Positions 19,907 to 26,630 of a stretch of DNA of 53,259 bases are shown piece after piece. The first letter of the stretch is position 1, and the number at the start of each line of letters is the position of its first letter. The translations under genes were made by a program, and so were the position numbers. The notes beneath the pieces are model-generated. The model had not been told where the DNA came from. It saw nothing but the letters and a program-made list of their open reading frames with translations, and ran no database searches. Origin of the DNA: an uncultured Patescibacteria group bacterium (GTDB lineage: Bacteria > Patescibacteriota > Minisyncoccia > Phycocordibacterales > UBA12088); NCBI GenBank assembly GCA_947259245.1, contig CAMYLP010000004.1, positions 1 to 53,259 of the forward strand. The letters are read 5' to 3'.

Positions 19907-19947
19907 AACGTAGCGCGTTCATGAGCGCGACGGTGTACAATGCCACT

Positions 19948-21285
19948 ATGGCAGAGGAGAATCGAACGAAGAGGAACACATTCGAAGACATGGTCTTCAC
20001 CTTGTTTGCTCTTCTGTTGCTGGCCCAGATACTCAATAACATACCGATTTTTCTTGAGGAACGTTTTGGACTGACCTTTGGTGGCAGTCCGAGTGGTGTA
20101 CTCCTCGCTTCAGCCGCGCTCTCCATGGACACACCGCTGGGGACGCGTGTGAGTACGCCAAACGGCACGGCATACTACGGCACCGCGGGAGACGAGGGTA
20201 GCGAACTGGGAACATTCCCGCCCGGCACGTCTTTGGTACTGAAGGACGGACCTGTCGAGGACGCTCTGGGCGAGCGCTGGTGGTATGTTGAAGATCCTGA
20301 TACGGGTAACGGCGGATGGGTGTTGGAGGATGTGCTCGTGAAAGATGGGGTGGGCGGTTTAAGTGCGGCGACAAAGCTAGGTACGAAGGTGCGCTCAATA
20401 GTTGACGGCATCCTGTGGCAGAGTCCTGCAGCACTTGTGGCACTCGGAAGTATGCGGGTGGGTGAATGGGGCATCCTTGCCGACGGACCCAAAGAGAAGA
20501 ATGGAACGCGGTGGTGGTACTTCGATCGTGAGGGAAGTGACGATGACGGGTGGGTTCCTGAGAGCATGCTCACGTTGTTTAGTGAGAAAGGGTGGCACAG
20601 CGGCAGTCTTGTCGTAGGAACGCGTGATACAGACCTCTTCGAACGCGCTGGGGGCGGTACTGTCCTTGGTTTCCTGAGGGAGGGTGAAAGGGCGAAGGTT
20701 GTCGGCGGACCTACCATGATAGGTGGTGTGTATTGGTGGGAAGTCGAGAAGGACGATGGTACACGAGGATGGATAACCGAAAGTGCACTTGAGGACGGCG
20801 GTATGCGGGGGGTGATGAAGGGCATTGTGACCACGATCGTCGTCATCGGCACGATAATCACCATCATCCTTGTCGGTGGCATTGTGTACGTGACAGTGCG
20901 CACGAACCAAATACGAGCACGCGAAGCCAAACGCATAAAGGCGGCAGTGCCGAAAGCGATGCAGCCGAAGCGAAACGACCGGTGGGACAGGGTACAGGAG
21001 CACGTGGCGAGCGACAACCCGAACGACTGGCGACACGCCATCATTGAAGCAGACATCATGCTCGATGAGATTGTCACGCGTATGGGCTACCAGGGCAACA
21101 CGCTCGGCGATCGGCTGAAACAGGTGGCTCGAGGTGATATGAGAACGATCGACTCCGCATGGGAGGCACACCGTGTGCGCAACCAAATAGCACACGAGGG
21201 GAGCGACTACATCCTCACCCAGCGCGAAGCGAAACGCATTATCGACCTCTACGGCGCAGTGTTTGAGGAGTTTAAGTTTATATAG
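19948..21285 (+). CDS. Membrane protein with SH3-like repeats and a C-terminal cytoplasmic domain
   Basis: N-terminal and central TM segments, repeated WWYxxxPxxGxGGWV/GWV(P/L)E units. Confidence 0.75.
   Translation: MAEENRTKRNTFEDMVFTLFALLLLAQILNNIPIFLEERFGLTFGGSPSGVLLASAALSMDTPLGTRVSTPNGTAYYGTAGDEGSELGTFPPGTSLVLKDGPVEDALGERWWYVEDPDTGNGGWVLEDVLVKDGVGGLSAATKLGTKVRSIVDGILWQSPAALVALGSMRVGEWGILADGPKEKNGTRWWYFDREGSDDDGWVPESMLTLFSEKGWHSGSLVVGTRDTDLFERAGGGTVLGFLREGERAKVVGGPTMIGGVYWWEVEKDDGTRGWITESALEDGGMRGVMKGIVTTIVVIGTIITIILVGGIVYVTVRTNQIRAREAKRIKAAVPKAMQPKRNDRWDRVQEHVASDNPNDWRHAIIEADIMLDEIVTRMGYQGNTLGDRLKQVARGDMRTIDSAWEAHRVRNQIAHEGSDYILTQREAKRIIDLYGAVFEEFKFI
21160..21285 (+). repeat. 126-bp direct repeat, copy 1 (3' end of the SH3-like gene)
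   Basis: Matches 22006-22131 with 3 visible mismatches, no gaps. Confidence 0.95.
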
Positions 21286-21298
21286 AGGTACACCACGT

Positions 21299-21335
21299 AA
21301 AAAAACCGCCCGAGATGAAATCGGGGCGGTGTTGG
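21299..21335 (-). terminator. Terminator for the minus-strand ORF at 21360-21785
   Basis: On minus strand ACCGCCCCGATTTCATCTCGGGCGGTTTTTTT: GC stem followed by T-run. Confidence 0.75.
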
Positions 21336-21359
21336 TTCGTGCGAATCGTCTGCTCACAA

Positions 21360-21785
21360 CTAGTGGACGTAGCTCTGCGGATGTCGGATACGATCCTGCA
21401 TACCATACATTCGCAGCAGCGCTTGGTTGTCATCTGAATGGGTGTACCTGCTTAGTTCTCGCGCAGCTTCGATTTGACCCTCAAAGCCACGTTGAATCCC
21501 CGGTATCTGTGCATAGTACAGGGAACACACCATGGTGGGCTGTCCACCGGGAGTGCTGGGGTGGTCGTACAGCACAAGTGCAAATCCATAACTTGTAGAC
21601 TTCAGATGACAAGGGAGACAATACTTCCCTATTAGGTGTTGGATGTGATTCCATTCGTACCTTGTGATTTCTCGTCTATAAATGTGATCACAGCCAGAAT
21701 AATCAGAGCCGACCACCACGTTGATTTCATTGTGGAGCTTCCGGAACCACGCACTGTCTTTCAATGATAGTGCCTCTCGACGCAT
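21360..21785 (-). CDS. Hypothetical cargo protein of the inserted segment
   Basis: ORF with GAGGAG 6 nt before ATG (GAGGAGAACGTAATG) and own terminator; an upstream in-frame ATG at 21836 is possible. Confidence 0.55.
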   Translation of the reverse strand: MRREALSLKDSAWFRKLHNEINVVVGSDYSGCDHIYRREITRYEWNHIQHLIGKYCLPCHLKSTSYGFALVLYDHPSTPGGQPTMVCSLYYAQIPGIQRGFEGQIEAARELSRYTHSDDNQALLRMYGMQDRIRHPQSYVH

Positions 21786-22005
21786 TACGTTCTCCTCAAT
21801 GTAGGGTACGTTGACAATGCCACAAATAGAGTACATCTATTACACATAAGGTCAAGACGGAGTGTAACATACTGCAACACGAGCAGTTGAAACACTGAAA
21901 ACTTTTATTGAAGGACCTCATCTCATGGTGGTCTACTAAGTTTCTACATTCGCTCTGATTTTGAAATGCCAGGTACTCACGAACTCACCTCGCCAGTTCT
22001 TCGCC

Positions 22006-22131
22006 TGGGAGGCACACCGTGTGCGCAACCAAATAGCACACGAGGGAAGTGACTACATCCTCACCCAGCGCGAAGCGAAAGGCATTATCGACCTCTACGG
22101 CGCAGTGTTTGAGGAGTTTAAGTTTATATAG
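22006..22131 (+). pseudogene. 126-bp direct repeat, copy 2 (C-terminal fragment of the SH3-like gene)
   Basis: Encodes WEAHRVRNQIAHEGSDYILTQREAKGIIDLYGAVFEEFKFI*, near-identical to the end of 19948-21285. Confidence 0.93.
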
Positions 22132-22221
22132 TATTGCGCATGCGACATGCTCATTCACGCTCGTGTTGAGTGTAGCAGTTGACAGAGAGAGTGCGTGCTG
22201 CACACTGAGGTTCAACAGCGT

Positions 22222-23295
22222 ATGAATACAACTCTCGTTTTCCTACTGTTCATAACGGTCGGCTGGGGCATTATGTTCCTAGTGCACTCGGTGGCATACA
22301 TACCCATAGCGCGGGTGTTAGAGATAGAGATGCCGCACTGGCCGCTTGTGCTGGCACTACTTTCCGTAAGCTATTTTGCAGCAAGTGTCGGTGTCCGTAC
22401 GATACAGAGTGTGCTTGCCGACTACTTCTACTTTGTTGCGGCGACATGGCTTGGTGTCGTGTTTCTGCTGTTTTCATTCTTGGTCGTCTATGAGTTGGCG
22501 CACCTCACGACAGGTTTCGACTCAGTACTGGTTCTCAGTAGCATACTAGTACTTGTTGGCGGTCTTTCCACGTACGCGCTGGTGCAAGGCCGAGCACTGG
22601 TCGTGCAGGAACATACGGTACCCATCGAAAGCTTGGAGCATCCGATACGCGTCGTGCATCTTTCTGACATTCACGTAGGGACCGTGCACCAGCGACAGTA
22701 CCTCCAGCGAGTTGTTGCGGAGACCAATGCGCTACATCCAGACATCATCCTCATCACGGGTGACCTCTTTGACGGCTCAGCACCTATAGATGAGGAGATA
22801 CTGACACCGCTCAACGAGCTCAAGGCGCCGAGCTTCTTCTCAAATGGCAACCATGAGGAGTATGAAGGTCTCACGCGCGTGAAGGACACCATCAGAAACC
22901 TTGACCTGCAACTCCTCGACAACACCATGGTGGAATGGGAAGGTATACAACTTATCGGCGTGAATGACCGGCAAAGTTTGCACGGTACGTCGCTTGAAGG
23001 AGTGCTTGGCTCTATACAGATAGATGAACACAAGCCGACTCTTCTGATGTACCACTCACCGTCTGACTGGAACGTGGCACGGAAGCATGGTGTCGACCTC
23101 ATGCTCTCTGGTCATACACACAATGGGCAGATTTACCCGTTCAATGTACTGGTACGTTTGTTTTTCAACTACATGAACGGCATCTATACCGAAGAAGGGA
23201 AACATCTCCACGTATCACCGGGTACCGGAACGTGGGGACCGCCGATGCGGTTGGGTTCACGGAACCAGATTACACTCCTCCACCTCCGTCAATAA
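22222..23295 (+). CDS. Membrane-anchored metallophosphoesterase
   Basis: HLSDIHVGT, ITGDLFDG, FFSNGNHEEY, LSGHTHNGQIYP. Confidence 0.92.
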   Translation: MNTTLVFLLFITVGWGIMFLVHSVAYIPIARVLEIEMPHWPLVLALLSVSYFAASVGVRTIQSVLADYFYFVAATWLGVVFLLFSFLVVYELAHLTTGFDSVLVLSSILVLVGGLSTYALVQGRALVVQEHTVPIESLEHPIRVVHLSDIHVGTVHQRQYLQRVVAETNALHPDIILITGDLFDGSAPIDEEILTPLNELKAPSFFSNGNHEEYEGLTRVKDTIRNLDLQLLDNTMVEWEGIQLIGVNDRQSLHGTSLEGVLGSIQIDEHKPTLLMYHSPSDWNVARKHGVDLMLSGHTHNGQIYPFNVLVRLFFNYMNGIYTEEGKHLHVSPGTGTWGPPMRLGSRNQITLLHLRQ

Positions 23296-23430: not shown

Positions 23431-23649
23431 CTGGTTGCGGGTCTCCATTGGTCACGAGTTGCTTAGCATTTCTGTTCACGTTGTTCCAGAAATGCTAAGC
23501 ACTCTCGACCCCACCTCGGCTGTTCTTCGCTAGCTCAGAACATGCCTCCGGCCTGCAATTCCGGACGAAAGGTGCGAAGGCACCTTTCTCCCTACGCACC
23601 AGTTAGCAAAATCCAGTCATGCGACTGGATTTTGCTAACTGGTTGCGGG
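23431..23649 (-). repeat. Hairpin-rich segment bounded by a direct repeat of the tRNA-fMet tail (CTGGTTGCGGG on + strand)
   Basis: Direct repeats 23431-23441 and 23639-23649; hairpins at 23461-23500, 23567-23588, 23599-23642 (20-bp perfect stem). Confidence 0.75.
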
Positions 23650-23714
23650 GGCCGGAATTGCACCGGCGCCTAGGGGTTATGAGCCCCTCGAGGTACTACT
23701 CCTCCACCCCGCAA
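23640..23714 (-). tRNA. tRNA-fMet (CAT), initiator-like, CCA encoded, atypical D and T loops
   Basis: Cloverleaf with GGG/CCC-type anticodon stem (AGGGG-CTCATAA-CCCCT), TGCGGGG/CCCCGCA acceptor; D loop AGTAGTA, T loop TGCAATT. Confidence 0.8.
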
Positions 23715-25946: not shown

Positions 25947-26630
25947 ATGCCGGTGCGTCGCAAGGTTGACCAGTCGTTCTTTCATTCCTGGAACCCAGGC
26001 ATGGCATATGTCCTCGGTTTCTTTGTGGCGGATGGCACCATGACCTACACCAAACATGGTGGGAGGTACGTAGCATTTCACGTGACAGACCGGGACCTGT
26101 TGGTCGATATTCGTACGCTGTTACAGTCGAACCATACCATCGCTGTACGCGTACGGGATCCGAGATGGAAGCTGGGCTACCGTATACAGATAGGGAGTAA
26201 ACAGATGTGTCGCGACCTGGAAGTGCTCGGCATGACGCCAAACAAAAGTAAGACGTTGCAACTGCCCGACATACCTCCAACGTATGTGGGTGAGTTTGTG
26301 CGGGGATATTTCGATGGTGATGGTTGTATCTACTTCAACAAGCTACAAGTTTCAGACCGGAAAAAGAAACGATACGTGCTTCAGACAAAGTTCACGTCAG
26401 GCTCAGAACAGTTTCTTACGGATTTCCAGAGTCTTCTTCAAAACCATGGGGTGAAGGGCGGTACTATCGTCACAAAGCAGAGGGGGTATGAACTAGGTTT
26501 GAGTCACAGGGACAGTCTTGCTATTTATCGCCTAATGTATAATAATGCTCCAACGTGCGACGTGAGATTGGAACGTAAATGGAAGAAGTTCGATCGCGCG
26601 ATTCAGACAATGTATGCGGATGTAGCTTAG
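25947..26630 (+). CDS. LAGLIDADG-family homing endonuclease-like protein
   Basis: Two LAGLIDADG-like helices: MAYVLGFFVADGTM and FVRGYFDGDGCI; stop codon lies inside tRNA-Asp. Confidence 0.88.
   Translation: MPVRRKVDQSFFHSWNPGMAYVLGFFVADGTMTYTKHGGRYVAFHVTDRDLLVDIRTLLQSNHTIAVRVRDPRWKLGYRIQIGSKQMCRDLEVLGMTPNKSKTLQLPDIPPTYVGEFVRGYFDGDGCIYFNKLQVSDRKKKRYVLQTKFTSGSEQFLTDFQSLLQNHGVKGGTIVTKQRGYELGLSHRDSLAIYRLMYNNAPTCDVRLERKWKKFDRAIQTMYADVA

Follow-up and report, generated by a model that had tools for sequence, protein, structure and literature searches.

The SH3/HEPN gene and its variable downstream interval

The window, that is, the whole 53,259-nucleotide stretch of Patescibacteria DNA analysed here, carries an intact gene on the plus strand at 19921-21285, recognised from the open reading frame list and Pfam. 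Its product has an SH3-like domain, a transmembrane segment and a C-terminal HEPN-like domain, although neither Pfam match, SH3_3 at E 1.4e-4 or HEPN_Swt1 at E 0.19, reaches its cut-off. Orthologues of this SH3/HEPN gene exist in 9 of 10 genomes of the family. Across the genus, the same order of features is observed: gatA, the SH3/HEPN gene, a variable stretch, and a tRNA-Met on the opposite strand. The tRNA-Met (CAT) of the window, a tRNA call that is syntenic in relatives, lies at 23640-23713 on the minus strand and anchors the variable interval.

In the window, the interval between the SH3/HEPN gene and tRNA-Met contains ORF142, a second copy of the 3' end of the SH3/HEPN gene, a gene termed MPE and a hairpin. 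The 720 bp at 21286-22005 that hold ORF142 constitute one occupant, and MPE is the second (22195-23295, plus strand), encoding a calcineurin-like metallophosphoesterase (PF00149, E 8.7e-18). Since a 62% homologue of MPE in relative G001 adjoins a copy of a tRNA-Val 3' end, MPE also looks like tRNA-associated cargo. On the tRNA side, all on the minus strand, are a tRNA-Met-anchored hairpin element at 23450-23553, a short copy of the tRNA-Met 3' end closing this element at 23431-23447 (CCCGCAACCAG), and, located by repeat search at 23598-23643, a terminator-like perfect inverted repeat of 21 bp that lies between the element and tRNA-Met. The hairpin element scores 104 bits (E 6.7e-18) with the covariance model R1 described below, for which it was one of the training sequences.

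The content between gene and tRNA-Met differs in every genus relative examined. It is about 60 bp long in G004 and about 150 bp in G002; in G001, a 46-bp duplicated tRNA-end and terminator surrounds other DNA; in G003, a peptidase-E-like gene and a hairpin are present; and in G005, a deletion in the interval extends into the SH3/HEPN gene. All five genus relatives have a single 3' end of the SH3/HEPN gene and neither ORF142 nor the insert, the state for which the initial annotation had proposed to look in relatives. In this region, the likely hot spot for mobile DNA is the side of the interval next to tRNA-Met.

Two other features of the window were observed outside this interval. A LAGLIDADG-type reading frame at 25947-26630 (PF14528, E 5e-15) overlaps with its end the start of a tRNA-Asp (26616), and a 119-bp tandem repeat of 99% identity opens the contig at positions 2-229 and may be an assembly end effect.

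Duplicated 3' end and the 720-bp insert

The last 126 bp of the SH3/HEPN gene (21160-21285, plus strand) recur directly at 22006-22131. The two copies are identical at 123 of 126 positions in an ungapped alignment, exactly as first described from the sequence, with 720 bp between them. The mismatches fall at 21201/22047, 21204/22050 and 21235/22081, and the repeat can be stretched to 133 bp at 96% identity; the next best 126-mer within the window matches at just 52 positions. Both copies terminate precisely at the stop codon (TATATAG), and the DNA beyond is unrelated. The start of the repeat at 22006 coincides with no landmark, and its end is the stop codon, where the homology of relatives also stops.

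The 42 duplicated codons include the motif RNQIAH. Two of the three mismatches are synonymous, and the third changes an Arg codon, kept by the relatives, to Gly in the downstream copy. With this replacement at a conserved residue, the downstream copy looks non-functional, and it is probably still attached to the MPE block. The upstream copy leaves the host gene intact and is taken as the functional one. That the insert was acquired is supported by its absence from the genus relatives, by the homologue of its reading frame and by the host gene being kept intact. No second copy of the insert was found in its own genome.

ORF142, the gene of the insert

ORF142 lies on the minus strand at 21360-21788 and is the sole gene of the insert, which holds no recombinase gene. 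Its product comprises 142 aa from the ATG at 21788, or 158 aa from an upstream ATG at 21836. The GAGGAG upstream of the gene and the terminator of its own, which the initial annotation had reported, are both present, the latter as an intrinsic-terminator-like hairpin at 21299-21330 on the minus strand (ACCGCCCCGATTTCATCTCGGGCGGTTTTTTT). Conservation at the protein level, to which that annotation had also pointed as a check, was found in the form of one distant homologue (34% identity, E 1.5e-13) in a Paceibacterota genome from another family of the class (G363). The Paceibacterota contig JAGOPO010000014.1 (L180) represents the same locus, which was the only one recovered by scans of genome contigs, and there is no tRNA near it.

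No Pfam domain was detected in ORF142, and its family is one without a known domain. The gene is absent from 40 relatives, and no homologues were found in viral contigs, plasmids or phages. A weak match in its own genome (contig C1, E 0.0015) was rejected as spurious, because the frame is unrelated. An AlphaFold2 model computed without an alignment reached a pLDDT of 43. Judged by its one homologue, ORF142 is a genuine protein-coding gene, and its distribution among the sequences searched is that of rare accessory cargo.

Hairpin-like piece at the junction

The 42 bp at 21963-22004, ending one base before the downstream copy, match 23489-23530 at 34 of 42 positions (blastn E 3e-4), compared with 26 for the best of 200 shuffles. 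Positions 23489-23530 are one arm of the hairpin beside tRNA-Met, and among about 90 loci compared this was the only significant match. The piece, on the minus strand, would represent a truncated half of a tRNA-Met-type hairpin element, with part of the side hairpin and the left arm of the main hairpin. It runs from close to the side-hairpin loop to the tip of the main hairpin. As covariance model R1 gave no significant score on the piece, its assignment was made from 42 bp of sequence similarity. Compared with the way in which tRNA hairpins place their tRNA-end copies, the piece has the wrong orientation and lacks a part. It seems, then, that the insert terminates in a cut hairpin piece of the type found at tRNA-Met. 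Between this piece and the downstream copy stands a single extra base, 22005.

A family of tRNA-anchored hairpins

About 16 of the 43 tRNAs in the genome are followed, 80-260 bp downstream, by a second copy of their last ~20 nt. The intervening DNA comprises a terminator, a segment that is in part antisense to the end of the tRNA, a side hairpin and a long, imperfectly paired hairpin. Covariance model R1, built from eight such hairpins of this genome, finds 7-14 matches in each genus genome and up to 18 per genome. Matches were present in 57 of 98 sampled genomes of the order; in a phylum-wide set, only 2 of 145 genomes contained them, both from the same order. Of 77 matches, 65 lie 3' of a same-strand tRNA or tmRNA, at a distance of no more than 400 bp. 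A copy of the tRNA's own 3' end, defined as at least 12 of 14 bases within 60 bp after the hairpin, follows in 43 of these 65, mostly directly at the hairpin end, compared with 2.8% for the ends of other tRNAs used as a control. The antisense stretch likewise matches its own core over those of others in 17 of 47 cases (2.6% in the comparison).

When 91 matches were aligned by fitting them to R1's own structure, 90.5% of the pair cells were standard, compared with 65.6% for shuffled and about 35-40% for slid sequences, and 31 of 32 hairpin pairs had changed on both sides. The main arm contains 16 G.U and 1106 Watson-Crick pairs, and the tRNAs of the same loci 219 and 2675 (Fisher P ~1e-16), a comparison of G.U with Watson-Crick pairs only, in which ARAGORN brackets mark paired bases and mismatches are uncounted. 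The scarcity of G.U pairs suggests that the structure is used as DNA rather than RNA. The hairpins are an order-specific, covarying DNA family. Rfam recognised only tRNAs in the window at gathering scores and does not contain the family, and nothing relevant on such elements in Patescibacteria or CPR was found in open-licence full texts. The family is apparently undescribed, and its hallmarks in sequence and structure were found neither in Rfam nor in the literature searched.

Tandem hairpins occur at one tRNA, and at tRNA-Asn there are two gene-bearing units, each closed by a tRNA-end copy. The direct repeats bracketing hairpin elements can be as long as 41-63 bp, terminator included. At the minus-strand tRNA-Asn locus (L070, G000:C28, tRNA at 2500-2575), downstream copies of the tRNA 3' end at about +156, +900 and +1600 enclose two small genes, one lipoprotein-like and one glyoxalase-like. 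R1 misses the hairpins of this locus, so a second hairpin subfamily is likely there. Two tRNA-Ser loci (L058 and L062) carry near-identical mini-elements. Although the acceptor stems of the two tRNAs differ, each mini-element closes with the 3' end of the tRNA to which it belongs; the element seems to adjust its end to the host tRNA. At three loci (L085, L097, L128), hairpin elements lie directly 3' of tmRNA genes. Upstream of a tRNA-Gln (L069, 5100-5550, minus strand), two tandem ~113-bp copies start like the 5' half of that tRNA (GCCGGATCGTCTAATGGTAG).

The genome encodes one tyrosine recombinase (PF00589), XerC/D-like, on contig C21 and not on the contig of the window. It scores 126 bits to TIGR02249, whose cut-off is 265; its best scores are to XerC/XerD and likewise fall short of the respective cut-offs, and no integron integrase above cut-off was found in the genome. 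A tentative interpretation of the family, to which the SH3-tRNA interval would belong, somewhat less probable than its converse, is an undescribed integron-like system in one Patescibacteria order. Its attC-like DNA hairpins would have the 3' end of the host tRNA as terminal repeat, and tRNA genes would serve as attachment sites of cassettes, perhaps acted on by the only Xer-type recombinase of the cell. Cargo would pile up between tRNA ends and neighbouring genes, and the 126-bp duplication and similar structures would be by-products of recombination at such slots. If the hairpins are recombination sites, they would form a cassette system with tRNA ends as docking sites and would explain gene gain and swapping in very small, reduced genomes.

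Origin of the duplication

For the duplication itself, we favour, at about an even chance, the end-to-end joining of two alleles of the SH3-tRNA interval by homology-facilitated illegitimate recombination. In this reading, the hypervariable stretch from the SH3 stop codon to the tRNA-Met 3' end serves as a slot for cargo and is accompanied by hairpin elements of the tRNA-anchored kind. One allele would have contained the SH3 3' end, ORF142 and a hairpin element, now cut; the other would have contained the SH3 3' end, the MPE gene, a hairpin element and tRNA-Met. Incoming DNA from a sister strain would have used the SH3 gene for homologous pairing at one of its ends; its other end, at a point within its hairpin element, would have been joined illegitimately to the resident gene, 126 bp short of that gene's end. 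This would leave the gene with a working 3' end from the donor, followed by the ORF142 insert and a dead remnant, 126 bp long, of the resident 3' end. In favour of this reading are the genus relatives with one gene copy and unrelated content ahead of the same tRNA-Met, and a repeat whose end, unlike its start, falls where the homology of relatives stops.

In this type of recombination, one junction lies in a homologous gene and the other has 0-10 bp of microhomology. Joins with 3-10 bp are typical (PMC3240628), and the two sides of the junction at 22005 share no more than CGC, or 3 bp. Such recombination has been invoked for older genes that lie displaced behind a recombined locus (PMC5361080). 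Among the sequences compared, the 42-bp piece matches only the hairpin of the same tRNA-Met, which fits an origin from another allele of the same interval. The genome encodes ComEC, and therefore DNA uptake by this organism is possible. We infer the two-allele origin, because neither single allele, nor a donor allele, was found among the genomes examined; the direction of transfer and a RecA-type pairing with microhomology joining are likewise presumed. The extra base at 22005 and the lack of a significant R1 score for the 42-bp piece count against two-allele joining. A looser parallel, partly similar in topology, was seen in the same genome in the interval from tRNA-Tyr to clpB (L057, G000:C6), in which a partial duplication of 108 bp and 88% identity, comprising the clpB 3' end with its terminator (1657-1764 and 2571-2677), brackets a gene for a 146-aa lipoprotein-like protein.

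The initial annotation had proposed that an element integrated at the gene 3' end and restored the reading frame. The acquired insert and the gene kept intact by the upstream copy agree with this, and the site-specific part of the proposal is not supported. A small element inserting site-specifically at the SH3 gene, bringing a replacement 3' end and displacing the original in the manner of phage-like elements in genes such as icd, would produce the observed topology of intact gene, insert and displaced 3' end, the empty sites in all genus relatives, and an accessory gene with its own terminator. Nevertheless, the insert has no recombinase and no second genomic copy, the only tyrosine recombinase of the genome is the one XerC/D-like protein, no att-like flanking repeat was detected at the insert other than the copied coding sequence, and the downstream copy abuts a cut tRNA-type hairpin piece in the wrong orientation, which makes this origin unlikely. 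In a similarly improbable scenario, an 846-bp unit (3' end, ORF142 and part of the hairpin) was duplicated in tandem through slippage or a template switch at the hairpin, and the MPE block then replaced the distal ORF142. This would yield an identical product, which counts against two-allele joining; the bounds of the 42-bp piece, at the side-hairpin loop and the main-hairpin tip, are plausible stalling points, and the sampled genome contains short tandem duplications at other places. A second replacement event is needed, however, and a second ORF142 copy has left no trace in the genome.

The hairpin piece at the junction could also indicate that the hairpin element itself moved cargo into the 3' end of a protein gene and duplicated 126 bp as it does with tRNA 3' ends, given that the elements are bracketed by copies of their target ends, sometimes 41-63 bp long with the terminator. 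This is quite improbable, as the orientation is reversed, half of the element is missing, 126 bp exceeds every other element-bracketing repeat seen, and R1 matches are nearly always beside a tRNA or tmRNA (65 of 77). An assembly chimera of two strains is the least credible explanation. The draft consists of 37 contigs, and two strain alleles are already part of the proposed history; yet the junction at 22005 shares no more than 3 bp with the flanking allele, too short for joining by an assembler, and the two 126-bp copies differ at three sites. The 126-bp duplication is a clear but ordinary recombination scar of modest interest that points to the tRNA-anchored family of DNA hairpins.

Comparison with known systems

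Among the features of a site-specific integrative element, the 3'-end direct repeat with an intact gene and the empty site in relatives are present at this locus, and an integrase of its own is absent. Tyrosine recombinases integrate at gene 3' ends, as in e14 in icd, tRNA-targeting islands and tycheposons. The insert resembles these in that a duplicated 3' end brackets it and the host gene is intact, and copies of tRNA 3' ends flank the members of the hairpin family in the same way. Unlike them, neither the insert nor the hairpin elements read here contain an integrase, and the hairpin elements are only ~100-250 bp long with a conserved hairpin.

Homology-facilitated illegitimate recombination is known from transformation in Streptococcus, Acinetobacter and Pseudomonas stutzeri, and has also been put forward to explain Vibrio T6SS immunity arrays and Rhs orphan 3' ends (PMC3240628, PMC5361080). 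In those systems, as would be the case here, one end is anchored in a common gene, the other lies at little or no microhomology, and the older 3' end or older genes are left downstream (PMC3240628, PMC5361080). The present case differs in that the event is deduced from one genome and that the illegitimate end would lie in a tRNA-side hairpin element.

Compared with integrons, the repeat bracketing the tRNA hairpins is the host tRNA 3' end and not a GTTRRRY/RYYYAAC core, and the hairpins are only candidate recombination sites in a genome whose recombinase stays below the integron integrase cut-off. In other respects, they are similar to attC sites: each is a long imperfect hairpin with one-sided unpaired bases, covarying arms and few G.U pairs. 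As in integron cassette arrays, the hairpins also occur in tandem, with gene cargo between the copies at tRNA-Asn and tRNA-Met.
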